The notes below the pieces were generated by a model. The model had not been told where the DNA came from, made no database searches, and worked only from the letters and a program-made list of their open reading frames with translations. A stretch of DNA of 38,496 bases from a virus. Numbering within the stretch: position 1 is the stretch's first letter; each line of letters begins with the position of its first letter. Below, piece by piece: positions 1 to 33,528 of the stretch. Both the position numbers and the translations under genes were made by a program. The DNA lies in IMG/VR virus record IMGVR_UViG_3300025131_000144, positions 1 to 38,496 of that record. One strand, given 5' to 3'.

Positions 1-2698
1 GCACAGGGTATGCTTTGGTGAATAACTTCATAGCCTCTGCTGGTGACTTCGCACTTGTGCCTGTTTGGTCAGTGCCTAGCCACAGCACCTTGTCGGGATT
101 CTTAATTTTAAGAAGATGACCATACTTTCTTTCAGAGGCGAAGATCTTATTTTTCTTTGCTCGCCGAAGAGTGCGTTGGGTGAAGTGCCATCCGTAGATG
201 CCTGCTGGAGTATTGAAAGAAGTCCCAGGGTTGAGGCCGACTTTATTAATGTCAGAAAAGGAGATGAGATGGTTCTCGTCGCCGACAGCCTTCTTGATGA
301 GGTCGGCTTGAGGATGCTTGTCAATGCGGAGATCTTCCTCGATGACTTCTTGGATCATGTTCCGCAAAAATTGCACACCCTCCTCTTGAGCGATCGGTGC
401 GTTCTCATTATAGGCATCGACAAACTCGTCCCAAACTTTTTGGATGGCTGTCTGAACTACATCGTAGTGTTCGTCAAAATATTTTAAGAACTGCACAAGT
501 CCTTTGATGGTGTATTCGTTATCTGTTTCGTTGAATTTGAAATATAGTCCGCCGGTTCCTCTGCGGCTTGGCTTATTTGTGGCGCTATATGTTTCTCCTC
601 CTAAATAAATTACATCTGCGCTGAAATAAACCTTAATACTTCTTAGCACCTCTAAAGCATCTTTGCGCTCGCCCCACTCTTTGTCTTCCTCTGCATCTCT
701 GTCAGAAGCATCAAACGCTAAAGCAAGTTGATTATGGGCAGCAACGGACGCATCAACGAGGTCGCTCTCAAGATGTGCTATTACTTTGTCGCCCCACATT
801 GGGTTGAGGAGCATACCAATAATCCGCTTCGGGCTATAGGCGATAGTAGTGGACATTCCGCTAAAATTGTGTGCATCAAATCCCATAACATGTGCCAAAG
901 GAGGAGACTCATTAGATTTTACCCACTCGGGGAACTTGCCAATCTTGCGGATTCCCGGTGCTGGATAGTTGTCCAATTTCTCGTGGGTGTATGCGGTAAG
1001 ATGACCACTCTGGAACTCTATACGAAAGTGTCCGAGCTTCTCGCCATCAAGACGGTTCAGATACTCATCTTCATCAAACTCTATAGATTTACGAAGTTTT
1101 TGGTATTTTGTCGGAGCATAAACTTCCTCTTCTATGAGTTTCTCAACAATTTCTATTTTGAGTTCGTCATAGTAGTTATGAATATTGTAAACCTCTTGAG
1201 CAATGTTTTGATCAAACATTGCAATAGGTTCTCCGCCGCCTTCCCAAACTAACCTAATGCGATAAATAAGCTTTCCTTCTGCTCCAAAGCGGATCACTTC
1301 TGCTTGGGCATCATAGCTAGGCTGTTCAAGATACTCATTGTAATGATCCGAATTTTCGTAGGCTTCTTCCACTAGTGATTCTATATGTCCCCAGACACTG
1401 TTGTGGTTAAGTTCGTCTTGTTGGATGGTCCATGGATCTTCGGGATCGACATTTACGCTCTCGTTGTTTTTTACGAATTCCGAATTGAGAATTGCGTGGA
1501 CTGGAAGATCGAATTCCACTGTCACCTTCCACGACTCTACTACTACAGACTCCCCCCACTCATCCCACTCTAAATCGTAATCAAGATTCACATCGTCGTG
1601 ATTGAAATATTCATGATTAAGATCCGACATCATTTCTTCGCCGTGATCCATTTGGCGTTGAAGTCCTTCTCCGGAAACATGATCAACATACTGTTCATCT
1701 GTTGTATCGTTGATCATGGGCATCGAATGAGGATACATCTCTAAATCATCATTGAGTTCAATATTCTCCAGTCCCAATAAATTATTGAACATAGCCGAAA
1801 ATGCCGAATCTGAATATGATCCGCCACGATGGTATATGTTACTGGGGTCGAGTTGCTTCTTAAAGAAGGGGTGATCATCCTGCTCTTCTCGGGCCCAATC
1901 TATGACGCTGTTTAAGAATCCCGGCACAGAGCGACCATAGATTCTACTCTCGGGAACCAAGAAAGCGTCTATAAATCCATTATCCGGCTCGACATAATCA
2001 AAGCGCCGGAGGCGGACACGAGCAAGCGGAGTTACACCCTCCGTACCTCTGTCACGATCGACAAATACCTCTGGATCGTTTAGGTGAGATTCAATATAGG
2101 GTGCATCATCGCTGTCGATCAAGTAAGCGATGGCTCCGGCACGGCGAGCATCTGCCAACGCACACTGGAAATAATCAGAGCCAGGAGAATGACAAGATTG
2201 AATTTCTCTGTGATCCGACATGCGAGCCACATCAACAGGATTCTGAGAGATTACAATCGAATACTTATTGTCAAGAACTTCAGGGTTGCCTAAGAATTTT
2301 GCTTGGACTTTATTCCACCATTTTTGGGTTTCTTCTGGTAATTGTTTTCCAATCACCTTTCCTAATTTTATTTTTCTTTCTTGTTTCCCTCGTTGGGTCT
2401 CTACCTCTTTGACAGCAACACCGTCCTTAAGGTCTACTCGTAGTCCTTTGGAAGCGAGAGGAATAACAACCTCATCATAGAACTTTTTAATCTCTTCGTT
2501 CTCTGATGCTATCAGGGGTATGACTACCCTTTGTTGTCCACCAAAATAAGAATTCATTGAGCCGGGCTTTAGGTCTGCCGCCTGATCTACAATATAGTCG
2601 TAAGTATCATCGTCTATCTCATTAAGAAGACGGACGGGAGTTTGGTGCTCTTCTATAATTTCATTAATAAGATTATCGAGAAGCTTGTCGAAATTCAT
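1..2698 (-). CDS. Large hypothetical phage protein, C-terminus cut by window edge
   Basis: The reading frame is open without a stop from the ATG at 2698 to the window edge, giving at least 899 residues; the C-terminus lies outside. I do not recognise a function. Three things can be seen. The N-terminus (MNFDKLLDNLINEIIEEH) is a short helical peptide with Leu/Ile-x-Glu sites, like the capsid-targeting peptides of T4 internal proteins. Residues about 150-260 hold a module with two cysteines (C169, C179), the string GAIAYLI at about 188-194, then PLARVRLRRF and a later IYG. I recall this arrangement from other large phage proteins of unknown role. Residues about 810-865 contain NTPAGIYGWHF followed by a basic stretch and YGHLLKIKNP, which looks like a second globular domain. 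The protein is acidic overall. The SD is GAGGA at 2708-2712, partly inside a hairpin. Function is unknown; a packaged or ejected virion protein is my inference. Confidence 0.85.
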   Translation of the reverse strand, partial: MNFDKLLDNLINEIIEEHQTPVRLLNEIDDDTYDYIVDQAADLKPGSMNSYFGGQQRVVIPLIASENEEIKKFYDEVVIPLASKGLRVDLKDGVAVKEVETQRGKQERKIKLGKVIGKQLPEETQKWWNKVQAKFLGNPEVLDNKYSIVISQNPVDVARMSDHREIQSCHSPGSDYFQCALADARRAGAIAYLIDSDDAPYIESHLNDPEVFVDRDRGTEGVTPLARVRLRRFDYVEPDNGFIDAFLVPESRIYGRSVPGFLNSVIDWAREEQDDHPFFKKQLDPSNIYHRGGSYSDSAFSAMFNNLLGLENIELNDDLEMYPHSMPMINDTTDEQYVDHVSGEGLQRQMDHGEEMMSDLNHEYFNHDDVNLDYDLEWDEWGESVVVESWKVTVEFDLPVHAILNSEFVKNNESVNVDPEDPWTIQQDELNHNSVWGHIESLVEEAYENSDHYNEYLEQPSYDAQAEVIRFGAEGKLIYRIRLVWEGGGEPIAMFDQNIAQEVYNIHNYYDELKIEIVEKLIEEEVYAPTKYQKLRKSIEFDEDEYLNRLDGEKLGHFRIEFQSGHLTAYTHEKLDNYPAPGIRKIGKFPEWVKSNESPPLAHVMGFDAHNFSGMSTTIAYSPKRIIGMLLNPMWGDKVIAHLESDLVDASVAAHNQLALAFDASDRDAEEDKEWGERKDALEVLRSIKVYFSADVIYLGGETYSATNKPSRRGTGGLYFKFNETDNEYTIKGLVQFLKYFDEHYDVVQTAIQKVWDEFVDAYNENAPIAQEEGVQFLRNMIQEVIEEDLRIDKHPQADLIKKAVGDENHLISFSDINKVGLNPGTSFNTPAGIYGWHFTQRTLRRAKKNKIFASERKYGHLLKIKNPDKVLWLGTDQTGTSAKSPAEAMKLFTKAYPV

Positions 2699-2773: not shown

Positions 2774-3082
2774 CTAGGACACATCCATCTCGTCAATTTC
2801 GACTTCAACATGCGGTGCTACTTTTTCGAGACCATACTTGAAAGACATAACTCCGGCCCTAGGTTTGAGGTTTGTTCCGAAAAGCTCATTGAACTTTTCT
2901 ATGCTCCGCAATACTTCCTCTTTCCCGTCTTTGTAGAACAACTCTATCTTATACAATCCCATTCCCTGGGGATGGACTGCCTCTACATAAGTTACTTTAT
3001 TAAGTTCGCCAAGCCTTGGGTTGGATTCTTCTCGGATAGCTTCTTTAATAATCTTTCGTAGTTGTGATTTTGTGATTTTCAT
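2774..3082 (-). CDS. Small protein with capsid-targeting-like N-terminus
   Basis: This is a 102-residue hypothetical protein starting at an ATG preceded by GAGGGA (3094-3089). The N-terminus MKITKSQLRKIIKEAIREE is a basic then acidic amphipathic helix containing IIKE|A, which fits the Leu/Ile-x-Glu cleavage rule of T4-type prohead proteases. The rest (residues about 30-95) reads as a small alpha/beta domain with alternating hydrophobic strands and an acidic end (VEIDEMD). No catalytic motif is visible. It follows the primase gene by 10 nt, but its leader carries its own hairpin and promoter-like motif, so it may be expressed separately. It is probably a minor virion or internal capsid protein by analogy with the other proteins here that share the N-terminal peptide; a regulatory protein is the alternative. 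Confidence 0.8.
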   Translation of the reverse strand: MKITKSQLRKIIKEAIREESNPRLGELNKVTYVEAVHPQGMGLYKIELFYKDGKEEVLRSIEKFNELFGTNLKPRAGVMSFKYGLEKVAPHVEVEIDEMDVS

Positions 3083-3088
3083 TTTTTG

Positions 3089-3130
3089 TCCCTCACGCCA
3101 TTAAAGCGATCTTGAATAAATAGGCGTCAG
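3089..3130 (-). promoter_or_regulatory. Leader hairpin over the SD with embedded late-promoter-like motif (copy 2)
   Basis: Plus-strand arms 3092-3099 and 3123-3130 pair over 8 bp with one mismatch. The mRNA right arm contains the GAG of the SD GAGGGA (3094-3089) of the 102-residue gene. The minus-strand motif CTATTTATTCAAG (3123-3111) overlaps the foot of the left arm and lies about 41 nt before the start codon. By hand alignment, 31 of the first 40 positions match the leader at 2708-2748. The element overlaps the last codons and TGA stop (3095-3093) of the primase gene, so ribosomes finishing the primase would pass through it. Confidence 0.45.
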
Positions 3131-4040
3131 AATCAATAAACGACGCTTTCTCTCTCCGTTTTTGAAACACATCTCGTGGCATTTCGCCAATGTCTTTATA
3201 TCCAGAGGTGTCCATTAAGCGAACTTCTACATCATAAGCCAGCAAAGCCTTCACAAGTTTCATCGCTTTCTTGTGTGCGTCGTTGTCTAACCCCAGCAGG
3301 ACTGGTGTGTCGTTTTTTACGATCTTCCTGAAAAGTCTGCTGTCTTCTCGTAGGGTTGAGCCGAGGAGTGGGATGCTGTTTTCGCCAGCAACGATTGCGT
3401 CAAAGACGCCCTCAACCAAAGTCACCTCTCGCTCCCAGTCAATTAGCAGTTCGTTGAAGATGATGTCTTTGTTGCCGGGTCCGTTCATATACGGAGGCCA
3501 AATGTTAGGGTCGTATGTGCGGGACGTGAAAAAGTTACAATAACCTTCTTCATCAAATGATGGGAGGATTATCCTGTTTTTGTATTCCCCGGAAGCGCAG
3601 TAGCCTATCTTCCAAAACAGAACGTCTTTACCTACAACGGCACGTTTGCGCAGATAGTTTAATGGAACTCTTGCGGAGGCAGGGTGGGAACGACCTGTAA
3701 GCGTTTGAAACTCATTTGGAAGGTCAATTCGTTGGCTAGTTTCTTCTTGCTTGGCAAACAGGTTGTCTAGGTCGCCCAACTCAATATCGGCGTCAAAATC
3801 TTTCCATCTATGGATGTGACTTATATCGCCCCAACGCCTGACTAGGCGTCGTAAATTTTTGGTGCGCCAGTCACAAGCCCAGCACTTGCCGACATTCTTG
3901 TCAAAGTTTACTGAGAGCTTACGTTTGTGGTGCCCGCAACATCGGGAAGGATAAAGATATTCCTTGCCTTGGCGTTGAGGTCTGCCAAGGATTTCATCAA
4001 GGATTCTTTTCTTCTTCGCTGAGTTGGGATCGTTGAGCAA
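3093..4040 (-). CDS. DnaG-type DNA primase (zinc finger + TOPRIM)
   Basis: This 315-residue protein is a probable primase that makes RNA primers for lagging-strand synthesis. The N-terminus has a CHC2-like zinc finger: CCGHH at 34-38 (Cys-x2-His) and C53-x2-C56. Residues about 150-200 have the conserved basic NRIILP and following strands typical of the DnaG catalytic core. A TOPRIM fold follows, with E210-G211 in TLVEGVFDA, the DxD pair D252/D254 in GLDNDAH, and K282-D283 in YKDIG. There is no helicase domain. The start is odd: the codon is TTG, directly after the TAA of the HAD gene and in the same frame, with no ATG or GTG before the zinc finger and only a weak AAAGAA upstream. Translation therefore depends on coupling or on stop read-through. 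It probably shares the promoter at 4670-4698. Confidence 0.88.
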   Translation of the reverse strand: MLNDPNSAKKKRILDEILGRPQRQGKEYLYPSRCCGHHKRKLSVNFDKNVGKCWACDWRTKNLRRLVRRWGDISHIHRWKDFDADIELGDLDNLFAKQEETSQRIDLPNEFQTLTGRSHPASARVPLNYLRKRAVVGKDVLFWKIGYCASGEYKNRIILPSFDEEGYCNFFTSRTYDPNIWPPYMNGPGNKDIIFNELLIDWEREVTLVEGVFDAIVAGENSIPLLGSTLREDSRLFRKIVKNDTPVLLGLDNDAHKKAMKLVKALLAYDVEVRLMDTSGYKDIGEMPRDVFQKRREKASFIDSDAYLFKIALMA

Positions 4041-4705: not shown

Positions 4706-5779
4706 TTAAAAATTGATGCCGCTGGGCAGCGCGCCGGGAGGTTTGGTTTTGGGTTGCAATTCAAAATCAGGGCTCTCTTCTTTCTTTTTCTTGGGGCAAA
4801 CCGTACTATAAACAGCAGGAACCGATGGCATCGCCATATTACTACCCATCACTGGTTTATAGACACCCCCCGCTTTTGATCCCGTGCTTTTCATTATATT
4901 TAAAAATTCTTGTGCGCCGTCGGGGGTGAGAAAATAAGGGTATTCTGAATATGGTTTTTTAATGTCGCCAAAAGAAACTACAACCGCAGGAAAATAATCA
5001 TTGTTCCATATAATGTTCATTGTCCCTACTATAATTTTATCCCTTGTTTGATATCTCGGATCTGTTGAACCTATCTGATCACCGGGCACTAGAAGAGTAT
5101 CCTGATACCGGTCTTTCTCGACTTTTGGGTGTTGTCGGAGGAGGTCGTCGTGGGCCGCGTTTACCATTCTGACAGAGCACTCTCCTATTATGCCCTTTGT
5201 TCCTTTAGTATCGGATATGGCTTCTTTCAACAAGCGAAGAAATGCTTCATATTGCCCCTGATCATCAAAGAAAAATCTAACCTCACCATCGTGTCCCGGA
5301 AGTAGATCTCCGGTGTCCAAGTTCCAAACGGGTGCGGCGACCCATAATGATGCCTCTCCGTGCTCATCCCAGTTGTTGTTTGCTATTGCGCAGCGCTCGC
5401 CGTCGGCGATCATAAATGCCCGAGCGTCCAAGCCAAAAGAAGCCAGTCCGCCTTGGTTGACAGTGTGATCACCGAGTTTGTTTTCAAAGTCTGTTACTGC
5501 TCTTACTGCCTTTTTGTCCTGGGTCGTGGTGGGCCAGGTTGTGCCTTTGTCCATAAGTTGTGCAGCACCCATTCTGGAGGCTATAGGATAAGCGGTTATC
5601 CCTTTGCCTGTTGGTGCTTTTTTGCCGCCAAAAGCGCCTCGATAATATTCATGCGAAACAGGAGATCCAAGCGTTTTGGCGGCATCGCCGAAGGGGCCTT
5701 CAGATATATTTGAAGCTTTATTCTCGTTTATGAACTGTTTCCAGGTTGTTATATACTTTTTGTATTCGTTGTTACTCAT
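4706..5779 (-). CDS. Hypothetical protein with capsid-targeting-like N-terminus (357 aa)
   Basis: I do not recognise the fold. I chose the ATG at 5779 over an in-frame TTG at 5785, because the ATG lies two bases after the upstream stop (TGA, 5784-5782) and GGAGC precedes it at a workable distance. The N-terminus is KKYITTWKQFINEN, followed by NISEGPFGD. WKQFINEN resembles the T4 internal-protein leader (KTYQEFIAEA in IPI and IPIII), and ISE|G is a textbook Leu/Ile-x-Glu prohead-protease site at residues 25-28. The middle (about 90-270) reads as a compact alpha/beta domain with runs such as RFFFDDQGQYEAFLRLL and NIIWNNDYFPAVVVSFGDI. The C-terminal 60 residues are low complexity with KKKKEE and PKTKPPG. 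It is probably a packaged internal protein, by inference. Confidence 0.82.
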   Translation of the reverse strand: MSNNEYKKYITTWKQFINENKASNISEGPFGDAAKTLGSPVSHEYYRGAFGGKKAPTGKGITAYPIASRMGAAQLMDKGTTWPTTTQDKKAVRAVTDFENKLGDHTVNQGGLASFGLDARAFMIADGERCAIANNNWDEHGEASLWVAAPVWNLDTGDLLPGHDGEVRFFFDDQGQYEAFLRLLKEAISDTKGTKGIIGECSVRMVNAAHDDLLRQHPKVEKDRYQDTLLVPGDQIGSTDPRYQTRDKIIVGTMNIIWNNDYFPAVVVSFGDIKKPYSEYPYFLTPDGAQEFLNIMKSTGSKAGGVYKPVMGSNMAMPSVPAVYSTVCPKKKKEESPDFELQPKTKPPGALPSGINF

Positions 5780-5781
5780 AA

Positions 5782-6531
5782 TCAAAAAGCTCCGCCGCTG
5801 CCGGCTAAAATCGCCGCTAATCGGTCTTGCTTTGTTTGACCTTTTGTTGGCTTTGGTGTGGATGGTGTAGCAGGGCCAGCAGGAACTGTAGAAGATCCAT
5901 CACCTGCTGGTGTAGGTTTACTGCGCGCAAAAGGAGATGACCATTTGCTCTTGGGTGGCTTCTCTTTTAGTTCTTCGGGATCTGGAATGATAGGCTTGAA
6001 CGAGGCTCCGGTGGCTGCGGCGGATCCAGCCGGGGAGGCCGGGGCGAGGTACGAGATGCTTTCCAGGGGAGTTTTTCTGTCGAATTGTGAAAAAACGCCA
6101 GCTAGCGATTTCATCATAGCCGGGGAAATGTTAGGGTGCCCAGAGAATCTTCCCTCCTCCTCTGGGAGTATTTCCCCCTCCTTGAAATAGCCATATGCCC
6201 TCTCCCACCACTCTTTACTGTTAAAAGTGATATTAGACTCCTGTCCACTCATAGATTTTCGACTACGCTTCTCCTGAGGGTGTGTCTTTTCATAAAATTG
6301 ATTAAGCGCGTCGGCATGCAGATAAGCATCTCTTGCGTCGCCATAGATCCTCTCTGGGTCTCTTGCCCAATCCATCGCGTTGTACAGGTTAGATACTTTT
6401 TTGTTTTGGTCGTTATAGAGTATTGCCGAGCCATCATCGGGGACTACAATGTAGTATTGCTTTGCACTCTCAAAGAGTTGGCTTAGTTCCTCTTTAATAA
6501 GGTGCCTAATGTGTTCGGGAGTTATTTTCAT
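5782..6531 (-). CDS. Hypothetical protein with capsid-targeting-like N-terminus and Pro-rich tail (249 aa)
   Basis: The N-terminus MKITPEHIRHLIKEELSQL is the same kind of peptide as in the 102-residue protein at 2774-3082 (shared MKIT, then a helix ending in IKE), with possible cleavage after LIKE or LFE. Residues 25-75 look like a small beta domain with a following helix (YYIVVPDDGSAILYN...). Residues about 100-150 contain a Trp/Tyr-rich segment (KEWWERAYGYF). From about 165 on the protein is a low-complexity Pro/Ser/Ala/Lys linker ending in a short helix and GGAF. The start codon has no clear SD; a 13-nt repeat lies 15 nt upstream. No function recognised. Placement among packaged-type proteins suggests an internal virion protein. 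Confidence 0.8.
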   Translation of the reverse strand: MKITPEHIRHLIKEELSQLFESAKQYYIVVPDDGSAILYNDQNKKVSNLYNAMDWARDPERIYGDARDAYLHADALNQFYEKTHPQEKRSRKSMSGQESNITFNSKEWWERAYGYFKEGEILPEEEGRFSGHPNISPAMMKSLAGVFSQFDRKTPLESISYLAPASPAGSAAATGASFKPIIPDPEELKEKPPKSKWSSPFARSKPTPAGDGSSTVPAGPATPSTPKPTKGQTKQDRLAAILAGSGGAF

Positions 6532-6545
6532 ACAATATATAGGAT

Positions 6546-6558
6546 ACTAATCAACTAA
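6546..6558 (-). repeat. 13-nt direct repeat in gene leader, copy A
   Basis: Minus-strand TTAGTTGATTAGT, identical to 7640-7652 and in both places ending 15 nt before an ATG. Here its first TAG (6557-6555) is the stop of the metallopeptidase gene. It is followed by ATCCTATATATTGT and no visible SD. Confidence 0.6.
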
Positions 6559-7625
6559 AGATATTTACCAAACGGAGACTTCTTCTTGGCCATGGCGGCA
6601 AGTCCCTGGGCTCCACCCCAAATGGTCTTCATTTTTTTAAGGGCTTGGTTGGATATTTTTCTGATTTTGGAAGGCTTATTGCACCTAGGGGATACTGGCT
6701 TGCCATTGTTCATCATCGCACAGGGTAAATTCTTTTGAGCATATTTGATAAGCTCAGGCTTTACGCGAGTATCTAATTGGTTACGCATATCATCTATTTG
6801 TTGGGGGGTTGAGGGGACTTCCATCCATTTGCCTGTGCTTTGGGTGAATGTGACCACATCTTCAAAAAACTGGTCAATAAGTTGTTCCCATGGGACTCCT
6901 AGATTGCGGGAATCAAGATAATAACCACGAGCATGACCCTCAATCTCAGCAGGCTGTAGCATATATTCAACAAAGGGTGTAGTGTCTTGTTTGATTCCGG
7001 CTTCTATTTGTTTTTGAAACTGTTTTATTATGGCTGGGCCGTCGGGGATATCGCTTTTTTGTTGCCCACTGGATTTTATCAGATCGTTCTCTTGGAGGTA
7101 GTGAACAAACTCATGGTAGAGAACCCCATCCAAGGTAGACAATAACTTCCCAAGATCCTGCTCCGCATTTTTAGAGAATAATTCTTTGTCATATGCTATT
7201 CTTATTGAGATTCCTGTTTTTTCCGCTCCGCCGCCGATCAGTGAAAAAACACTTCCTGCCGCCGGTCCAGAAATGGATCTATCTACACCAGGGCTCAAAG
7301 ACAGCCTTAGTCTTAAATTATTCAATAGTGACTTGGGAAGCCCATCTTTAAGCCATTGGTCCAATAATGTAGGTACCTTATCTAATCCTTCCGATAAAAT
7401 ATCTCCATATTTTCCGGCGGTGATCAAAACTACTTTACCTTCTGTTCTCCATTTCTCACGATAAGCGGGGAACTCCTCCTTGTCATACGTCAGTCCTTGT
7501 TGGTCCTCTTGTGTTATAAAAGTACGAAGCATTAGCATATAAATTCTTGTAAGTTGTCGGGTTGCTGCACGGGCTTTTATTTCAGTGAGAAGGTACCTCT
7601 GCCAGTTTTCATTTATTTTATCCAT
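6555..7625 (-). CDS. Zinc metallopeptidase (HExxH zincin) with capsid-targeting-like N-terminus
   Basis: This 356-residue protein contains LYHEFVHYLQEN, a clear HExxH zinc site (H171, E172, H175) in a predicted helix. A likely third ligand is in PAEIEGHA (E227 or E229), about 52 residues later, as in gluzincin-type peptidases. The preceding strand (SIRIAYD, 140-146) would be the edge strand. The N-terminus MDKINENWQRYLLTEIKAR is a short helix with LLTE|I, a candidate prohead-protease site. The C-terminus is basic (KIRKISNQALKKMK, KKKSPFGKYL) with two cysteines in PCAMMNNGKPVSPRC. There is no signal peptide or membrane segment, so it is not an obvious secreted or lysis enzyme. A packaged protease delivered to the host is possible; a virion-maturation protease or a wall-degrading enzyme are alternatives. 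The start lacks an SD. Confidence 0.85.
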   Translation of the reverse strand: MDKINENWQRYLLTEIKARAATRQLTRIYMLMLRTFITQEDQQGLTYDKEEFPAYREKWRTEGKVVLITAGKYGDILSEGLDKVPTLLDQWLKDGLPKSLLNNLRLRLSLSPGVDRSISGPAAGSVFSLIGGGAEKTGISIRIAYDKELFSKNAEQDLGKLLSTLDGVLYHEFVHYLQENDLIKSSGQQKSDIPDGPAIIKQFQKQIEAGIKQDTTPFVEYMLQPAEIEGHARGYYLDSRNLGVPWEQLIDQFFEDVVTFTQSTGKWMEVPSTPQQIDDMRNQLDTRVKPELIKYAQKNLPCAMMNNGKPVSPRCNKPSKIRKISNQALKKMKTIWGGAQGLAAMAKKKSPFGKYL

Positions 7626-7639
7626 AATATATTTAGTAC

Positions 7640-7652
7640 ACTAATCAACTAA
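7640..7652 (-). repeat. 13-nt direct repeat in gene leader, copy B
   Basis: Identical 13-mer to 6546-6558 and likewise ending 15 nt before the next ATG (7625). Here its second TAG (7643-7641) is the stop of the RuvC-like gene, so the two copies are read in different frames. The leader continues as GTACTAAATATATT with no SD. Confidence 0.6.
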
Positions 7653-8213
7653 TACTATCTTTTCCGTCAAGAACCCTTTGTTGTCTTTATTGCGCAAGAG
7701 AAACTCTCCGGCTCTGGCTATTACGATAGCGTCTGCACGGTCGTCAGTTCCCTTTTTGTAGTTTCTTCCGCCCCGAGCCATCTCATATTTAAAAGCGCTC
7801 TTCTCTTTTTCGATAACGCTTTCAATAACCATCTTCTTTCTCTTTGGTCCCTTTGTTCCGCGGGGAAAAGATAAGCCATAGAGTGATCGGGCACTGTTAA
7901 CGTTCAAGTAGGTGGGCTCTCTTTCAAAACTGTCATAACACATCCATGAAACAATACCATTAAATTTGGCAAGCTTCATGAGGGTGTCGGCTCTTGATCG
8001 TCCTGGGATAAACTTCTTTAAGGCTGTTTCGATGAATATGTGCTCAATATTATAATTGTTGCGAATCTGCCAAAGCTCTGATCCGACTAGCTCTGCTTTA
8101 GAAAACAGGGTATCGAGTTTGGAAAGATCCCAGTGGGTGCTGAGTACGAGTTTGCGGTCATCAATAACCGCCACTCCGACGATGGAGGTAGAAATGTCTA
8201 AACCAAGGATCAT
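7641..8213 (-). CDS. RuvC-like Holliday-junction resolvase / RNase H-fold nuclease
   Basis: This 190-residue protein has a RuvC-type active site: D6 in ILGLDIS on the first strand, E62 in IFIE, and the acidic cluster D157-D158 and D161 in TDDRADA before the C-terminal helix. A lysine/arginine-rich stretch (KGPKRKKM, about 121-128) could contact DNA. The length is close to bacterial RuvC (about 170-190). The expected role is cutting branched DNA before packaging, a job done in T4 by the unrelated endonuclease VII. It sits between the fibre genes and the proteins with capsid-targeting-like starts. Just upstream is a TAGTATACTA palindrome (8219-8228 region on the minus strand) instead of an SD. 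Other RNase H-fold nucleases are possible, but the four acidic residues fit RuvC best. Confidence 0.85.
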   Translation of the reverse strand: MILGLDISTSIVGVAVIDDRKLVLSTHWDLSKLDTLFSKAELVGSELWQIRNNYNIEHIFIETALKKFIPGRSRADTLMKLAKFNGIVSWMCYDSFEREPTYLNVNSARSLYGLSFPRGTKGPKRKKMVIESVIEKEKSAFKYEMARGGRNYKKGTDDRADAIVIARAGEFLLRNKDNKGFLTEKIVLVD

Positions 8214-19707: not shown

Positions 19708-22700
19708 TTATGTCTCTTCGTTATTATTTGGCGTAGCCAGTAAAGATAATGTCACTGGCTGATTAGACGCCATTGGTAATGTTGAGCCTGGAGGAATGTT
19801 AATATTGATTGGCAACAAATTATTCGAAGAATTTTCTTCCTCTGCATACTCTTTTTCAAGGTCAGGACGGAAGCCTACTTTTGTATCAATCTTGGCTAGC
19901 TCTAGAAGTGAGAAATAGTCATATGGCCAGTTGTAGGTAGGGTTATTGACAGAGTGCTTGAGAAGATAACTATTTTTAGCGAAAGTATCTTTCATCTGAT
20001 CAAGGGCAGTGAGTTGCTCCTCGGACATGCCGCTCCTCGCGAGGTAACCTCGTACGTTATCATATCCAAGGGCGGCATTTCCATCAACCTCTTCCATAAC
20101 CATATGAGAATAATCCGTTAGTCCGCGCTCTTTAACTTTGAATACGAGCCATTTAATCTCGGGGAAGAGTCCATTCTTAGAGTTTGGTGTTGCAACGTCC
20201 AATAAATCATATCTAGGGTGTCCTGTTCTCTCTACGCTTAGCTCTAGTTGCTTCTTTAATACTTCTGGGAATTTTGTTGTCCCATCTTCCACTAAGTTTC
20301 CTGGCATGTAATGATCGATAGCTGAGAAACTAAGTTTAAAGTTGCGACCAATGTCCGGAAGCACGCCTTGCCAAATATCTGCAAGATCTTGGCGGCTGAG
20401 GTTTATTACGTGCTCCATCAGATAGACTACAGGGATTGTACTTATTTTTCCTCCCTGCAATATTTCATCATAATCATCATCACCGAAGGGGTTAATCACT
20501 TCAGGTATGTGAGGATATCCGCTTGGCACAAGATCTTGTAGTTGTTTTGCTAAAGCAGGTGGGAAAGAATATTTTGTAAATTTCTTCCTGAACTCTTTGA
20601 TTTTTGGCCCCAATTCATTAGCTGGGGCGTTCAGCGTCACTAAGCGAATGTTCTGCTTTTCATCTCGATATACTGGCAAAGCAACTATAGCTTCTGATAG
20701 TTTCTTCTCATTATCTTCTGGCAATTCTCCCATTCTTTTTGCCTTATTGGGATCAAAACCCTTCCGGATAATTTCATCGGGATCAAAGCCGCACAAATCA
20801 GCTAAGGATCTTACCTGTCGCTGGGAGTCTATTACAAACTTGGGAATCTTTTTAACATATTCATAATTTACAGCGGTATTTCCCCCTGTTCCATCAAGTT
20901 GTCCTAGGGCGACGCGATCATATTCCTCGTCTTTCCCAGTTGGAATATCCTTAATATAAAGATAAATACCCTTGTTGTGGTCAGGGGTAACACCATACTG
21001 GTGCCACATCCCCTGAGCAGAGGAAGTGTATTCACTTGGTGTGACTGAAGAAGAGAAATCATAAGAAGTTCCGCCGCCATAGCGATTAGGGAAATCTAAT
21101 ATGGGAGTTTCCCACTTCGGCATAATTGTCCACTTATTAGGATCAGAAGAGATATAGGTTCCGCCAACGCCGATAGGGAATTGATTGTGGACATTGATTG
21201 TTGCGTCTATATCCATTCGATTTTGCCAAGCCCTGTTCCACCCATAATCAGGGGTTGCTGTAGTCGCGACATCATTTCCGTCGCGATCAACATAAGACCC
21301 GCTGGCTACATCAAAATAGCTTCCACTTTCATTTAAATATTGAATGAATAACTCGCCCTCTTCGTTGTTAATAATCTGTTCTAGAGTATATTCTTCTCTC
21401 CTCGAAGATGGCACAAACAATAGCCGAACCAAGCTTGGACCATAATAATAGGGGGGAGTGAAGGGCGCAAATTCGCCGCGGTGGACAGGCCACGTAGATC
21501 CGCTTGGAGTTTGGTTTGGAGTAAGTCCTGACCAGCCTTCTGAACCGGTGGCTGTTGGTATGCCGAAAGCATAAGGATTACTATAGAGATTAAAGTTGTC
21601 TGTCTTTAGAAGTCCAACTTCCATCATATATGCGCTCTTATTATCCACTACAACAGTTCTTTCAGGATTTGTTACCTGTTGGCTGCTCTTTGGTAGTGAG
21701 CCAAACTGTGACACAAATTTCGTTAAGTGTCCCTCGTGTCCAAACTTATTGAACTTCTTCTTTAAAAAGAACTTTGGAACATTGGCTAAGAAGTTGGAAA
21801 CCATCTTCTTATAAAGGGTGTCGTCTAGTCCCTTAGCAGAGATTGAACCACTAACATCGTGATGTAAATATTCATTAATATCTGATAATACGACCGGTTG
21901 GTCAAATCCTTGTTCTAAGAAACTGGCTGGATCCATGATCGATTCAAAAGGGAGCCTATCTCCCCAGAAAAATTTATTAACGTCAGCGTCAGACCAATCT
22001 AATTCATTAGTTTGGCGGCGTTGGTTCCCAGGAACTTGTCCTGCCGCTACAGCAGCAAGTGTGCCGGAAAGTGCTCCCTTTAATGGAGTTGTAGCCGAAG
22101 AAGACAGGAAAGCGCCATCATTTCTGGTTGCTCTGCGAATAGGGTAATCAACCGCTAAACCAGATTTTATAGAGTTATATAAAATTCCTGGAGCAAAGAA
22201 TGGTTTATATATTGATCGCCAGGCTTGAGTCGTGGCTGCATCATCGCCCTCATACACTGCTTGTGAGTTATATGACTCATAGAAAGACTTGGCGATATCC
22301 AGTGTTCTGTCTACGGGATAAAATCCATTATAAGGAAGCAGCTTAGCAACAGCGTTTGAAGAGAGTTCAAAATGACGGGGATGATTATTAAAAATAAAGT
22401 TACGATTATCTTCGCTCATTGGCATCAGGTCACCTAGGAACTCTGGTGTATCTGTTAGGGCGAAGCGTTCATAAAAAGAGGTATTAAGTCCACTGTAATT
22501 ATCTCCGTTGGCTCCTGTAATTGACAGGGACGATGAAATTGTGGCTGCCAATGGCCCAAGCTGCTGATATTGAGAAACGTGCTCGCTTATACGGAATTCT
22601 GGGATAATTGTGTGATCTTTCGCTGCCAATCTTATATCTTGTGCATAATCTTCATAGGTATTGTAGAACGGATAAGAGGCATCGGCTGATGTTCCTTTGG

Positions 22701-25700
22701 CTGCGCCATCAACGTACATGCGATATTGTCCGGCAGCCCAAGATGGGCGTGTATATGCAGCGCCGGGTGAGCGGGGCTCTGGCAAATAATAATTGGATAC
22801 GTTGGCATTTTTGCCGCCGGCAAAAGCTACAACATCTAAGTACCCTTCATCTGCTACCGCAGATCCTGTGATTGGCTTTGTATTCATCGCAGTCCCGGCG
22901 TTATCTGCACTAAGATCGACAATCCCAACTGTTGGAGATCCATTGACTGATATATCGATTAATCCCGAGGCTTGTGCATCAGTGATAGAGCTAGCGATCG
23001 CCGTGGCGACGTCATTAGCAGAAGAAGTTGCGTCTTGAACACCTATGATCGGGGGCGAAGATGCGGCAATGGTTACGCTGCTATCAAAAGTCATCGTATG
23101 GGTTGCTGAGGCATCCTCTAATATTAAAGTCTTCCCGTCAAAATCTGCATCAGCGCCATTCGCCCAAGAGACAACACCTATTCCGCTTGATAATCCCATA
23201 ATAGAGGAGATGGTCTTGCTGTTCATCGCACTGCCAACGGTTGATGCAGTTAATTGTATTTTAGCTGTATCTGATGGGTCTTTGTTGACGGAATAATCAA
23301 TTGGAACAGACGATACGGAATCAGACAGAGCATTATACAGGGAGTCTCGAATATCCTCTGTTGTAGCTCCGGCTGAACCAACTAGCCCAACGGTATAGGT
23401 GGCCACCGCGGGGTCGTATACAAATCCGCCGGTAGACTTATCAAACTCAAAATAAATAGTAGCGGATGATCCCTGTGCGGTTACTACTTCTGCTCCCCCG
23501 TGTAAAGAATTTCTATCGGCTGTCGATCCAACAGTTATCTCTGCCGTAGCAGCCACAAGAGGTTGTCCCTGGTACAACGACGCGGTAATTGATGCGGAAG
23601 CCGTAGCTGGGGTTTCGGATAAAGTTACAAGCTGAGTTGCCGGGATGTTATAAACATATTGAGCAGAGTTAACACTGGCTGTCTGATAAGATGCCGAGCC
23701 ATTAGCATAAGAAGAGTTTGTTATATTATCGTTAATTGATCCATAGTGAGTCATCATTAGCTCACCGCAAGCCATAGTAGCAGCGTCGGCCATCAAAACC
23801 GGGATAGATGCTGTCAATACCCCCACGAGCGAGGAATTATAATCAGCGTACAGGTAGGTATCCAATGGCCACATAGAAGCCGAACCGTTACCTATTGCCT
23901 CTGGGTAGCTTGGGTCTAGCGTGTTGTAGGGCGTCTGCTCTTTTGCTAGGATAGTATAACCCTGTGAAGTGACATAATCCCCTGTTTGCCTAGGCATTTG
24001 GCGGTTATAGTAATTCTTTATAGATGGAGTTCGAAGGCTCACATAAGATGCTAACGGAGCGGGTGAACCCCCAGGTAGAGTAGAGTTATCCTTCCAGAAA
24101 TCATTTACAAAAGAGAATCTTGCGCGGGTGCCCGAAAGATAAGTGTATATTTCTTTTGGGTAGATTGTTTCAGAATATTCGAATATCTTAATCAGGTTTA
24201 ACCCGTTTACATACTCTGGAAGGTTTGAGACTCTTTGGTCTCTCATTATCTCATATGGTCTTTTTATTTGTCCGTGCGAAAATTTTAGTCTTCCTTGAAT
24301 TTCACGGTTTAACTCACGGTTAGCAAACCCCATTAAAGAGTTTCCATAGCTATATTTCATACCTAGAGTTGTAAGCGTTTGCCCGGTTCTTGAAGGAGTT
24401 CCTAAGGGAGTCCGAACAACGTGACGAAGGGGCTTATACCGAGATGTCAAGGGCGTTTCCTTAAACCTCTGGGAATAGTAATATCCTAAAGTATTTCCTG
24501 CTCGGTCTGTAGTTTGTCTGCTCGTTGTGCCACCGCCGTACGTAACTTCAGAAGGTGGTGACGGAATTGTAATTTTATAACGACGAGTTGGGGGAAGTTC
24601 AAATATGTTATTTCGTCTAAAGTACGATCCCTGATTTGTTGATCCCTCTCTTAATTGTGTCCATGGTGCTATCTCAGGGTCATGACCCCAGATAAATTCA
24701 TATTTCCCAGCAGAGGAAGTATAGATCGCTTTGCCGAAAGAAGGGTCAGAGTCAAAAGAAGTTACTGGGACTGGTATATCATTAGGGTACCGATTTCCAG
24801 ACAGGATATAGTCGCTATAGAGCCCAGTGTTTGATCCGGAGAGCGCCATAAACCACTGTGTGCTATCACCGGCTGGAATAGGCCGGGTAACAAAAGCATT
24901 GTCGTAAAAGGTGCCAGTTATATAAGCCAAAGGAGAAGTTGTAGAAATCTGAAGTCTTCTAGTCTGGTTGCTTGGAGCCTTGTGAACCGAAGGAGTTGTT
25001 GGGTCTCCTGATTCATAGCCGCCAAATAGAGTATGCGCAGACAAACGAGTATTAAGAGATGTGCGTACTGGAATATTACGGAAAGGCAACGCGTTATTAG
25101 GAGAGTACTGATTTGAGTTCACATCCCTAAATTGCTGTTTAGAATCAAGCTTTGAGCCAGGTGCTGCGAAAGTGTTGACTATAATGGTCTGGGTTGTGCG
25201 GCGGGCTGGTCTTTGTCGAGGTGCAGCATAATCAGCAGACCCTGTAGCATTATTTGAGCGCATTGAAGGGGTTGTTATAAACGCCGAAGGCATGGAAACA
25301 TCATATTGATCTGTGTTAAAAACAAAGTCGATATTTGTGTCTGCTCTGTTGTTACCTAGGACGACTTCATAGTTGCGTTCAAAGTTTCCGATTTGACGAA
25401 CCCCAGAAGTAACCGAGTGGTTTGTTACTGATGTTTGAATATTTTTAAGGTTTACCGGCCGTTTGGCTGCCAATCCCCTTAGGTACTGTCCTTTGGGGGC
25501 AGAAGTTGGCGATACCGACGAGATCGTGCCTACGCCCGCGGAAATCGATAAATTGTATTCCTCTGTTCGATCTGCTGTTCTAAACGCTGCGTTATGGCGT
25601 GCTTCAGTGCCGCCGACATAGCGTCTAGTGAATGGACCCTGTAAAGGAGAAGAGCCGCCCTCTGGTTGAACCACATCCTGATGCATATTCGTAAGGTCTA

Positions 25701-28700
25701 CATTCGGCAGCCCAACTGATGCTAAATAGGCATTATAGCCCGCGGTTATTGTTGTGCTTAGCGCAGTAAAGGGCGTCATCTGCTCGCCGTTAAATGATTG
25801 TCCGCCAATTGTAGCCCGGAAACTAACTCGCTTCTTTTCGTCGGGGACAGGTGAATCAACAATATCTGGCTGCTCTTCAAAGGAGTCAAAGGTTACTCCT
25901 GTTATTTTATACTTCTTGTTCTTTGCCTGATTTGCCCCCGAGCTATAATCTCCAGAAAAGCTCATTCCGAAGCTAACTGTTCTTTTTGAATCAACCTCTC
26001 TCTGGAGCGCTTTCTGGATAGATTGGCGGCTATAAATTAGTGTACCGGGGCCGGACAAGACATTGCTATATCGTTCAGCGCTTAGTTGCCACCAAGTTGC
26101 GTTATGCGACTGTAAATTATTGACAGGGGCATGATTATACCGCCAACTATAATTTGGAACTCTTGGGTTTATTCCGCCGCCAAGTCCTGCTCCGCCTGGG
26201 GATCTCGGGATTGGGCTAGGAATAACTCGATTTGGTATTGGAGGCGGGTCAATTGGTCTAATACCGCCCGGAGTGTCTCTTGGAGCGGGCGGAACGACAG
26301 GAGGATAAACAACTGCATCGTGAGGGTCGCCCTCTAGTCCTAAGTCTACAGGCGCGCCGCCAGCGTTACCGGCGGGGCCTAGAATTCCTTCTCCAAAATT
26401 TGACCGGTCTTTTAAGAGCGGGAAACCATACTGAATCTTGGGTCGTTCTAATACGTGACTCTCGACAACATTCCGAACATTTGGAGCATAGCGAGCAGAA
26501 CCCGGAAGAAGCTGCTGAATCATCTCCGACATGGCGTCGTCGAGCCATTTATAATACTTTACATATTTGTCAATATCTATAGTGTTATTATTTACTTTCC
26601 GGAAAAATATTTCCCGCATCTTCTCCATGCGTTTATAATTGAGTCGGAATTTATTAACTGGTTCGCCGATAAGATTATTGAATTCATCGATTGAGGCGAA
26701 AAGGTGCAACATCCGGTTGGAAATGCTCCGATATAGGCTGCGCTCAACTGCAAAATAGAAGTTCTCTGGGCGGATATTCACCCCGAAGGCTTCGTCGTCT
26801 GATGATAATACCCGAATCATGTCCTCGCTGCTAATATATTCTGGGCCCTGGAGTTTGTTTGTGTAAACGTACTCTTTCCGAACCGGAGTAGAACTAGCCT
26901 TAAAGAAGTCGCCGCGCCCGGTGTGTTGACGTAAGTTTATAGAACTTAACATCGTTCCTTGATAGTCTGAATCATATTCTCCGGCGATTGACCCAGAAGA
27001 AAAATCAACAACACTAAACTGTCCGCTAGCATTGCTGCCAGTAATATTTGTAAAGTCCCAATCTAAAGCAAGTGTCTGAATTTGTGGAATATAAGCGTTC
27101 GGAGCGTTTGTCTGGAAAGAATAAGCATTACGGGAAGGATTAGTTCGACCATAAGAGTCTGCTTCCAGGGCCTGGTTAACCAGGCTCCCAGTTGGTAAAT
27201 AATCTGTCCAGTAACGAACGCTTGAAATTTTAGAATCTGCGTAAGTTAAAAGGCTGCCGGTATAGTTTGTACGATGTGCGCCGGCATAAATTCTCTTTGA
27301 AGACTCTATAATTGACTGCCCAGTGGCGTAAGCTATTCCTTCTTCTGTACTAAATTCTGTCTTCGCAACACCGTTATCACAGTTAACACCATGTAATTGC
27401 AGAGTATATCCATCAGTAGCTACGGATGCTCCTAGAACCCCATCATTAAATGGCCACTTCTTTGGGCGCAAAGATAAAGTAAAGTTCCATCGCTGATTAT
27501 CGTATACGTTGTTGAATATACTACTTGTTAATAGTGTTGTGCCGGCTCGATCCTTTACAAGAAAGAATGCATCCATAACTCTGCCGGCAGGTTCATAAAC
27601 GGCTGGGTATTCTCCCGGACTCTTAACTGCATAAACTTGGAGTCCATAATCATTTGGTGCAGATGCCCAGGTTAAATCAACTGAAGAAGCAGTCGAATCA
27701 AGAGGTGTATGGAAACCAAACAGAGACGAAGAAATGACAGTGGGAAGACGATGAGAAAGAAGTTGATAGTTTTGTTTATTTGGGAAAACTACTTCTGATT
27801 GTAAGGAGAAGACAAAGTCTTGCAGATCCGTTGATCCGCTAATCACGCCTACAGAATTAGAATTAGTCGAATCATAATACTGATATACTGTAGCAGAGGC
27901 TGCATCAACATCTTGAAGTGCAGAGAAATCTACATACTTCTTTTCACTTGAATCTGTCTTATACGACGAAGCTAATTTAAAGTCTGAATTGTTTGAATAT
28001 GTGTTTAGGGAAATTATTTCTTCACCAACACCTAAGCATCGAATAAAGTTTCTTATTGACTTTTCATTACCCTTGGACTTAAGAATGAAATTAATATTAT
28101 TATAGATGTTTTTGTATATTGAATTTTTTATATCCTTTAAATTCTGATCAAAAACTATCTGTTCATCTCTCTTCAGGAACTGTTGAAGCGTTCCAATATT
28201 TGCAAAGATTTCTGGGGTCTCAATACCCATGCTCTCGACAAGCCTATCATTAAACGGAAACTCATTCATAGAAGCAGACAAACTGCCGCTATTATAGTTC
28301 ATGTGTTTAATGTTCTTTAGGGCGGTAATCTGATTATAAATTGTGTCGAAGTAGCTTGCAATAATCTGAGTAAGACTGAGTATTTCATTTGCACCGTCCT
28401 CTTCCTCTTCAATAATCCAAGCCGGAAGATGGTTGAGCAAGCGGGCCGAGTTTAAGCCGTCGTAGTAGCTTCCTGTGTTAACATAGGTGGTGTAGGTCGT
28501 CTGGTAAAGAGAATTTGAAGTTCTGATAATTGGGCTGGCAATTTCCTCAATATTTTTAATAGACAAATCATTTATTGCCGAACCGGTGTTGCGGCTATAT
28601 GTCTCATCATATCCTAAATAATGACCATTTGAAAGTCGTCCTGAATAGTCTAATAAAACCCTATCAACACTAGCTGTTTGGGTAATGCCCTCGTTAAATC

Positions 28701-31311: not shown

Positions 31312-33105
31312 TTAAGTTATAACTCCTGCAATATCTGTGGTAGGTAATAAAATCTGAGCGGCTGTATCTTGAGGAATTACTAAGTATCTTCCGTCATCTG
31401 ACATATTTGAATCAATGTTATAAATATAGTTTCCATATACGCCGCCAACATGATTAACTAATTCTACATCTGTGGTATCTACTACGCCAGGGACTTGATT
31501 TAAAAGTTTGTATATCTCAGAGATATAGACAGCCTCTCCGATATCAAATTTAACATTCAAGAATCTTCGGATTAGCTTATCCGTGCATGTCTGCAACAGT
31601 TCATACTTATTAGTTTCTAAATCTGCTATAATCTTAAAGTTAATACCAATATTAATTACTTTCCCGTCCAAAACGTCAATAGTATCATTTATCATTCGGT
31701 ACCGGTTAATCCATGTCTTAACATTCTCTTTGAGATTCTGATTTGGCTGAACAAGGTCTCCGTCTGTATCTTCGGATAAAATATACAAATTAAGATTTCT
31801 TTTAAGAGAGTTGGGATCACGTATGACATTACATTTTCTAACTTTGCCAAACTTTGCCGGCATCCGATAAATAAGACTAATATAGTCAGATCTCGTAACA
31901 GCACGGTTCTGAGAAGCGTAAGCGCTCGATGCCCTCTCCCTGATTTCGTCTGCCAGAATAACACTAGTGTCTCCTAGGATGGGATCTTCGTTTTCCACCT
32001 CCAGGGAGGAAATAACCGACGATACTAATGTTGAATCTAGGCTAGCCTGGTCTCTAAAATTAAAGACGGGAGTAATTGCCCTACTGACTGCTCCAACGGC
32101 AGCGTTGACAGTTCCGGCTGTATTGGCTGTATATTCCACCGTCAAAGTGGTGTTGACTGGAACTACACCGAATTTATCTGTTTGTATAAGGTTTGTTGGG
32201 TCAAAAGTCTTATCTGTAATATAATTTCTTCCGTTAACATCCAAGACAACATCGGCAGGGTCAGCTATTAAATCACCAGTAAGATTATCTTCTGACCCAT
32301 ATCCAAACTGAATATGAGTTGTCCCGTCTACTCCATATTGGGCAACAAATCGGCGAGGTACTGGTTTCAATCTCATAATATATGGAACGGCTGTCCTATC
32401 AGACGCTGTATTTCTAACCTCACTCATTACTACGTCTTGAGATAGATATTCTACTTCGTAGTATTCGTTTCCTTGTGAATCTTTCACAGACATAATTTCT
32501 GTAATATTGGCTTTTGACAGCCCTAGGCGGAGGAAACGACGGTAGTCACCGACAGACATAGTGTCCATATATCTTTTCCCTGAAACTACTTGTCCAAATG
32601 CTTTAACAGCAAAAAATGTTGGGTTTCCCGTTATACTATCTACTCGGGCGACAGTGACTTCATTATTCTCAGCAGAAAAATCCACATCTTCTATTAGAGT
32701 GAAGACGCTGTTAGTGTTTGAAGACAAGACCGTCCCTCGTTGAAGAATGGGGAGATAATCTATGTTTGGGCCACGAGCATTAGCTTTTGCTGGTATAATA
32801 ATATAGAATGCAACCTGTCCTGTTGATTTGGCAGCGGCTTGATGTTTATAGCCAAAAGTCTCAGCTAGCCGGCTTACATTCTCGTAGCGGATCGCTGAAT
32901 CTATGAAAGTCTCATTAGACTGGAAGTCTGCATAAAATGACAGTTGGTCGCCAACATAAGATACTAAATCGAGCATCAATGAGCCGAAGGAAGCTTCACT
33001 AAAATCTTTAAAAGTAGTTGGGTAGTAACGTTTTGTATAATTTACTAAATCGTCACGTATTGACTGGAAGTCCCTACTAGTATAGTTAATGGGTTTTTTA
33101 GCCAT
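31312..33105 (-). CDS. Baseplate wedge protein, T4 gp6 / phage Mu-P2 baseplate J family
   Basis: A 597-residue protein with the N-terminus typical of gp6/J-like wedge proteins: NYTSRDFQSIRDDLVNYTKR, then FKDFSEASFGSLMLDLVSYVGD, DQLSFYADFQSNETFID and a YENVSRLAETFGYK segment. The centre (about 100-330) is beta-rich. Residues about 375-470 contain ILADEIRERA, AVTRSDYISLIYRMP and the following strand, the usual J-type core. The C-terminus includes VNIGINFKIIAD and IYKLLNQVPGVVDTTDVEL. In T4, gp6 homodimers join the wedges into a ring. The position directly after the gp25-like gene matches the usual order. SD AAGGA precedes the ATG within the 18-nt gap. Confidence 0.93.
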   Translation of the reverse strand: MAKKPINYTSRDFQSIRDDLVNYTKRYYPTTFKDFSEASFGSLMLDLVSYVGDQLSFYADFQSNETFIDSAIRYENVSRLAETFGYKHQAAAKSTGQVAFYIIIPAKANARGPNIDYLPILQRGTVLSSNTNSVFTLIEDVDFSAENNEVTVARVDSITGNPTFFAVKAFGQVVSGKRYMDTMSVGDYRRFLRLGLSKANITEIMSVKDSQGNEYYEVEYLSQDVVMSEVRNTASDRTAVPYIMRLKPVPRRFVAQYGVDGTTHIQFGYGSEDNLTGDLIADPADVVLDVNGRNYITDKTFDPTNLIQTDKFGVVPVNTTLTVEYTANTAGTVNAAVGAVSRAITPVFNFRDQASLDSTLVSSVISSLEVENEDPILGDTSVILADEIRERASSAYASQNRAVTRSDYISLIYRMPAKFGKVRKCNVIRDPNSLKRNLNLYILSEDTDGDLVQPNQNLKENVKTWINRYRMINDTIDVLDGKVINIGINFKIIADLETNKYELLQTCTDKLIRRFLNVKFDIGEAVYISEIYKLLNQVPGVVDTTDVELVNHVGGVYGNYIYNIDSNMSDDGRYLVIPQDTAAQILLPTTDIAGVIT

Positions 33106-33123: not shown

Positions 33124-33528
33124 CTAACTAGTCATAGTGGAAGTAATCTTTAGCTCATCTCTTGCATTGGCCGGCAAAATATCATAAGTTATGGCTACTG
33201 TGATCTGGTTTGTGGCTAATGTTGCATCTTCATCACTAGTGATAAAATCAATAGAAACTAAATTTATGGCAGGGATATACGTCCCAGTTTGTTCTTTTAT
33301 CCGAGAAACAATATCAGCCATTATATCACCGTCGATGTTCTCAAACAGAAATCGTCGGAGCCCAACGCCAAACTCTGGCTCCATTATTCTCTCGCCAGGA
33401 CTAGTGAGGATTAGATTTTTAAAATTTTGCTTAAGGGTCTGCCCAATCGTCTTATTAAGTCGATAAGGCCCGTCTACATAATCGTACACCAATGGTACTT
33501 GTGGGGATATACCCTGTCTTTTACTCAT
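33124..33528 (-). CDS. Baseplate wedge protein, gpW/gp25 family
   Basis: A 134-residue protein that matches the gpW/gp25-like family in length and motif. The signature is at residues 38-63: NLILTSPGERIMEPEFG, then VGLRRFLFEN, including the conserved Glu-Arg and Pro-Glu-Phe-Gly. The C-terminal strand region (NQITVAITYDILPA) is also typical. In T4, gp25 sits at the inner baseplate next to the sheath and helps start sheath assembly. Its ATG overlaps the TAA of the 1654-residue gene by one base (TAATG), which suggests translational coupling. It confirms a contractile-tail injection system. Confidence 0.95.
   Translation of the reverse strand: MSKRQGISPQVPLVYDYVDGPYRLNKTIGQTLKQNFKNLILTSPGERIMEPEFGVGLRRFLFENIDGDIMADIVSRIKEQTGTYIPAINLVSIDFITSDEDATLATNQITVAITYDILPANARDELKITSTMTS

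Follow-up and report, generated by a model that had tools for sequence, protein, structure and literature searches.

The capsid-targeting sequence (CTS) of the T4 protein IPIII is formed by its first 10 residues, of which residues 4 and 7 act in targeting and residues 8 and 10 in processing, and the cleavage motif of the phage protease gp21 is L/I-X-E (PMC9026906). No protease is among the ejected T4 cargo described there. In the T4 record, ipII and ipIII both start with MKTYQEFIAE. The polyvalent proteins, for which entry into the host together with phage DNA is predicted, provide a second point of comparison; in their zincin-like peptidase (MPTase) domains HEXXH is joined by a Glu from the helix that follows (Iyer et al., 2017; PMC5512222). 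The protein described here would belong to a kind of system already known from these precedents, the CTS cargo of T4 (Alt and the IP proteins) and the metallopeptidase domains of polyvalent proteins.

The window, by which we mean the whole stretch of DNA analysed (38,496 bases, an entire IMG/VR viral record), comes from a bacterial virus with a contractile-tail gene block. The genes follow one another on one strand: the contractile-tail block, tail/fibre genes, a gene for a RuvC-like resolvase (7641–8213, minus strand), the gene at 6555–7625, and then HAD and primase genes (DNA primase at 3093–4040, minus strand). The gene at 31312–33105 encodes a gp6-like baseplate wedge protein, for which tblastn gave hits in myoviruses, both T4-like and other, and in our own reading that at 33124–33528 is gp25-like; a very large protein of 3361 residues is encoded within the tail block (19708–29793). 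Head genes are absent from this 38.5-kb fragment, and a prohead protease was not seen in it. The window edge cuts a large protein, leaving its N-terminal 899 residues (1–2698, minus strand), which are 42% identical to a 1868-residue protein of locus L036 and have matches in L036 and L046 only among the fetched loci. A near-identical short intergenic sequence, TTAGTTGATTAGTrTmCTAwATAT, lies at 6532–6558 and 7626–7643, ahead of 5782–6531 and 6555–7625; it is perhaps a cassette junction or an expression signal.

The gene at 6555–7625 had earlier been read as that of a metallopeptidase that may be carried inside the capsid. We assign a probability of about 0.6 to the full reading, that its product is a zincin carried as capsid cargo, which the prohead protease trims after E15 and which is injected with the DNA and cuts one or more host proteins.

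The leader and the T4 capsid-targeting sequence

The gene at 6555–7625 (minus strand) encodes 356 residues from an ATG start, a predicted zincin metallopeptidase whose putative capsid-targeting leader, MDKINENWQRYLLTE, spans residues 1–15 (7581–7625, minus strand); the predicted mature form comprises residues 16–356. We gathered relatives by scanning with the gp6-like and RuvC-like neighbours, which gave 72 related viral loci; those recovered by synteny, with the RuvC-like gene as upstream and the primase as downstream anchor, are mostly large T4-like myovirus contigs. None of the 72 loci has a close copy of the 6555–7625 gene. Runs of leader genes occupy the same place in the relatives, near ruvC, the HAD gene and primase, and some of their products have HExxH. 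Two kinds of N-terminal peptide are shared among the genes there, MKKLLTEWRKFLKE-like and MKITKSQLRKIIKEE-like, and a leader of the form W-x-x-[FY]-[LI]-x-E is found on 65 proteins that fall into 37 body families.

A leader score matrix trained on the relatives alone, with the window excluded, gave 16.3 for 6555–7625 and 20.1 for 4706–5785, the next window gene scoring 0.04. The distribution of scores is bimodal, and these two genes fall in with the leaders. When the first 25 residues were shuffled, the real score was reached 16 times in 200,000 for 6555–7625 and twice in 200,000 for 4706–5785. The pattern by which leaders were gathered requires the W, the aromatic residue and the Glu; freedom from selection is therefore limited to the unconstrained positions and a pentamer test. 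The unconstrained positions before the W hold 2.1–2.7 bits of information, and those after the final E at most 1.0. In the pattern-free test, which covered 1,439 genes from relatives in 428 body families, 91 pentamers were common to at least three unrelated families within residues 1–25 (MKITK, IIKEE, TEWRK and LTEWR at the top); the three 25-residue stretches that follow gave 4, 3 and 2. The sequence-only reading had proposed a helical N-terminal peptide ending in LLTE|I that was shared among putative cargo proteins. The leader is real, but those letters are not what is common; the common motif is W-x-x-[FY]-[LI](x)-x-E. Within the window only 4706–5785 shares it, whereas 2774–3082 and 5782–6531 carry a second class of leader.

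The L/I-x-E motif forms the end of the leader. The leader behaves as a module, because in G015 the class B body (defined below) is paired with another leader subtype: 44 of its 49 body residues are identical, against 8 of 14 in the leader. The 6555–7625 leader has one residue more before the final E than most relatives, a longer spacing that recurs in P0006 (WRTFILDE) and L073:17167 (WRKFVLTE).

Residues Y4, F7, I8 and E10 of the T4 peptide align, with equal spacing, with the W, F/Y, L/I and E of the leader; in 6555–7625 the corresponding positions are W8, Y11, L12/L13 and E15, with L-T-E at residues 13–15, where cleavage after E15 is predicted. The internal head proteins and Alt of T4 likewise have a short N-terminal peptide with an aromatic-x-x-F/Y-L/I-x-E pattern and an L/I-x-E cleavage motif. 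Near-complete relatives, moreover, encode T4-type head proteins: of 10 related records, 6 have a Peptidase_S77 domain (gp21-type prohead protease; E 1e-29 to 3e-34) and 5 have a capsid protein of the Gp23 family. The N-terminal region of that capsid protein contains a conserved LLENQA..LL[RK]E|[TSA], where the propeptide ends in L-x-E, in line with a protease that cuts at this motif. In contrast to the T4 CTS, the leader here is longer, has a strongly conserved LLTEWRK-like core and has Trp in place of Tyr.

Amphipathic N-terminal helices can have other roles, and the leader, itself real, has been recognised here by its sequence; it might direct a peptidase made after infection to some other site than the capsid, for example a membrane or a phage compartment. 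We consider this improbable, given the prohead-protease motif at the end of the leader, the fall in conservation right after it, the T4 spacing, and the S77 protease and gp23-type capsid protein of the relatives. These features of sequence, together with the leader-bearing ADP-ribosyltransferases described next, give good support to the earlier proposal of a capsid cargo, and packaging of the 6555–7625 protein in the capsid is highly probable.

Other leader-bearing proteins

The second protein of the window with a W-type leader (4706–5785, minus strand; YITTWKQFINE|N) has its likely start at the ATG at 5779 and no family match. The second leader class, MKITKSQLRKIIKEE (MKIT...I[IL]KE), ends in [IL]-x-E and is found on many genes in the relatives; in G001, G002 and G003 one member, starting MKKSELKSLIKEC, is a neighbour of the prohead protease. 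The window has two such proteins, both probable cargo: 5782–6531 (minus strand; MKITPEHIRHLIKEE), whose N-terminal pentamers are common to unrelated families in the relatives, and 2774–3082 (minus strand; MKITKSQLRKIIKEA).

Domains recognised on leader-bearing proteins include ART-PolyVal (6e-15), NUDIX (1e-15) and GNAT (4e-6). ADP-ribosyltransferases, Nudix enzymes and acetyltransferases are of the type for which injection is established or has been suggested, as in T4 Alt and the polyvalent proteins. As in the T4 head system, then, one leader is found on otherwise unrelated proteins, with ADP-ribosyltransferases among the cargo; unlike in T4, the body families are many more (37). Partner domains of polyvalent proteins (ART, GNAT and ParB-like) recur here as separate leader-bearing proteins.

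Several of the individual proteins can be described further. Those at L045:16607–17182 (ART-PolyVal, 6e-15) and L041:14722–15315 (3e-4) are leader-bearing, ADP-ribosyltransferase-like analogues of T4 Alt, and another at L084:6001–7089 is ADP-ribosyltransferase-like by a VVYHYT motif and has no Pfam match. Leader proteins resembling 2H phosphoesterases, at L139:2091–2540 (minus strand; LigT_PEase, E 4e-4) and L084:5528–5977 (plus strand), could be packaged counter-defence against cyclic-nucleotide signalling. The leader protein at L105:8432–9130 matches DUF3293 (3e-9) and, weakly, S-AdoMet_lyase (5e-4), and is possibly a packaged SAM-depleting anti-restriction enzyme. A leader-like protein at L074:8074–9420 has a weak match to Peptidase_M74 (murein endopeptidase) and adjoins a GH25 lysozyme (7222–8049, 1e-39). 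A HELGH membrane protein that is conserved in relatives near the cargo genes (L041:16032–16835, L045:19169–19972 and L073:19322–20125) looks like an M50 site-2 (RseP-type) protease.

The zincin body and its homologues

The HExxH zincin residues named in the sequence-only reading, H171, E172, H175 and a later Glu, are borne out by the open reading frame and its homologues. HEFVH (residues 171–175; 7101–7115, minus strand) supplies the predicted zinc ligands H171 and H175 and the predicted general base E172, and is invariant in 11 family members, as is E227 in PAEIEGHARGYY (6945–6947, minus strand), the predicted third ligand. At the composition of the window, an HExxH is expected by chance about 0.004 times per 356 residues. 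A C-terminal motif, LPCA...P.C (residues 300–315; 6681–6728, minus strand), contains two Cys common to P0001, P0005 and P0006.

Scans of viral contigs with the single protein found no relative. The profile that includes class B (P0002, P0003, P0004, P0007 and P0008) led to P0005, in the 190.7-kb contig L074, and to P0006, in L075. With leaders removed, the 6555–7625 body aligns to P0005 and P0006 with an hhalign probability of 96% (E 2e-9), the alignment spanning HExxH, an E-x-x-HARGYY motif and the C-terminal LPCA motif. Class B aligns less well (E 6e-4 and 8e-4), and these weak statistics make its kinship with the zincin body a tentative one; all these remote-homology E-values refer to single comparisons. 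A third class, C (HELEH), was found by profile search of the records in L141, L142 and L145. Positions invariant across the 11 members include H171, E172, H175, Q178, Y221, E227 and Y236, at identities of 17–26%, each measured to the reference sequence of another class. The clustering of zincin genes with leader genes in relatives adds to the support for capsid cargo; P0005, for example, lies within a run of five W-leader genes at 158–164 kb of its contig.

Searches of reference collections returned little. Pfam and PADLOC gave zero matches to the 6555–7625 protein, PHROGs and PDB sequence searches nothing meaningful, and tblastn against GenBank phages none; tblastn of P0002, P0005 and P0006 against GenBank phages gave none either, and no relative emerged when genome contigs were scanned for the core motif. 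Class C matched only Immutovirus in the GenBank phages (tblastn, E 1e-3). The Immutovirus protein, gp088 of Flavobacterium phage vB_FspM_immuto_2-6A, is a remote zincin relative (HEIEH...PKEVDANLQGMY) from the same primase–HAD region; unlike 6555–7625, it has its zincin domain as the C-terminal part of a 907-residue protein that lacks a W-type leader. It corresponds to L146:5892–8615, annotated as an NMN adenylyltransferase, and has two HExxH (642 and 805) that are absent from the annotation.

The 6555–7625 protein shares HExxH and a downstream Glu, here on a predicted helix, with the MPTase domains of polyvalent proteins (PMC5512222), and a similar entry into the host with phage DNA is proposed for it. 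It differs from them in being a single-domain protein with its own leader, consisting of that leader and one recognisable region without multidomain polyvalent architecture, and in having no match to Pfam MPTase-PolyVal (PF18818); none of the 11 members matches this family up to E 5. A sub-threshold PF18818 match in G006 is located elsewhere in G006. Judged with these tools, a family of free-standing zincins that carry a CTS-like leader of their own and fall outside Pfam and PHROGs is new.

The zinc site of the earlier proposal stands on conservation across divergent homologues and has gained no structural support. The AlphaFold model of the 6555–7625 protein (pLDDT 48) places a helix at residues 225–242, but this model and that of a class C protein (pLDDT 60) are both of low confidence, too poor to judge the site or the zincin core fold of a helix, a three-stranded sheet and two helices; Foldseek and VIA-align searches gave unrelated helical matches only. 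The zincin body is strongly divergent outside the motif and its activity is deduced from residues, as might be expected if a packaged zincin-fold protein acted by binding, without proteolysis. HExxH and the third Glu nevertheless form the invariant core at 17–26% identity, which leaves this alternative only a slim chance, and zinc peptidase chemistry is likely for the 6555–7625 protein, judging from its conserved residues.

A phage HExxH protein could also be a lysis enzyme, and in L074 the homologue P0005 is followed directly downstream by a GH25 lysozyme. However, the highest 19-residue Kyte–Doolittle mean in the 6555–7625 protein is 0.87, and therefore it has no membrane helix and no hydrophobic N-terminus, in agreement with the earlier statement that signal peptide and membrane segment are missing. 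It has no export signal and no match to a peptidoglycan-binding, lysin or other lysis family in Pfam or PHROGs, and the obvious endolysin of L074 is its GH25 protein (E 1e-39, with PG_binding_1). A lysis role had been named earlier as what would overturn the cargo proposal; we found no support for it and reject this identity, which would be very hard to credit for a protein without any lysin feature.

Proposed course of infection and its meaning

We propose that the N-terminal 15-residue amphipathic peptide would direct the protein to the prohead core in the manner of the T4 CTS, as its matching residues and spacing suggest, and that a gp21-type phage protease would then cut after E15 at L-T-E. 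The 341-residue mature enzyme would stay with the DNA in the head and be ejected into the host, by analogy with T4 Alt and the IP proteins. There, at the start of infection, an enzyme with zinc on H171, H175 and E227 and with E172 as base would cut one or more host proteins, a chemistry suggested by conservation.

The packaged zincin might instead act on phage proteins, processing other cargo, or large proteins with several domains, either inside the head or soon after ejection. Iyer et al. (2017; PMC5512222) proposed autoprocessing for the metallopeptidase domains that polyvalent proteins contain, and homologous zincin domains occur inside larger proteins in L046 and Immutovirus gp088. Against this, the 6555–7625 enzyme is free-standing, and the zincin is uncoupled from the large neighbouring protein at 1–2698, which is found in L036 and L046; in G002 (L036) the zincin alignment finds no match. 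Processing of that large protein by the zincin is disfavoured, as the two occur independently. We regard a phage substrate as rather unlikely. We favour a host target for two reasons: the zincin is a rare, free-standing enzyme that related phages interchange, as one would expect of an effector more than of a fixed assembly function, and it occurs independently of the large neighbouring protein; taken by itself, we would put the host target at even odds. A takeover or anti-defence action of the protease, as suggested earlier, is plausible.

We found no description in the literature of the leader or of an injected phage metalloprotease, a weak absence given that journal coverage was partial. As far as our tools show, the wide range of proteins that bear leaders in uncultivated T4-like phages is also new. 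To our knowledge, few head-delivered enzymes of T4-like phages are known. We suggest, tentatively, that a modular capsid-loading tag, comparable to a secretion signal, may arm virions with exchangeable effectors of at least 37 unrelated families, among which the zincin would cut a host protein of defence or regulation during DNA entry. For takeover or counter-defence, a head-delivered protease, if true, would be an uncommon means. The tag, being recognisable in sequence, marks dozens of so far uncharacterised proteins as candidates for injection as effectors, whose delivery and targets are testable gene by gene, and searches for the tag family could bring to light effectors that act early in infection by uncultivated phages.
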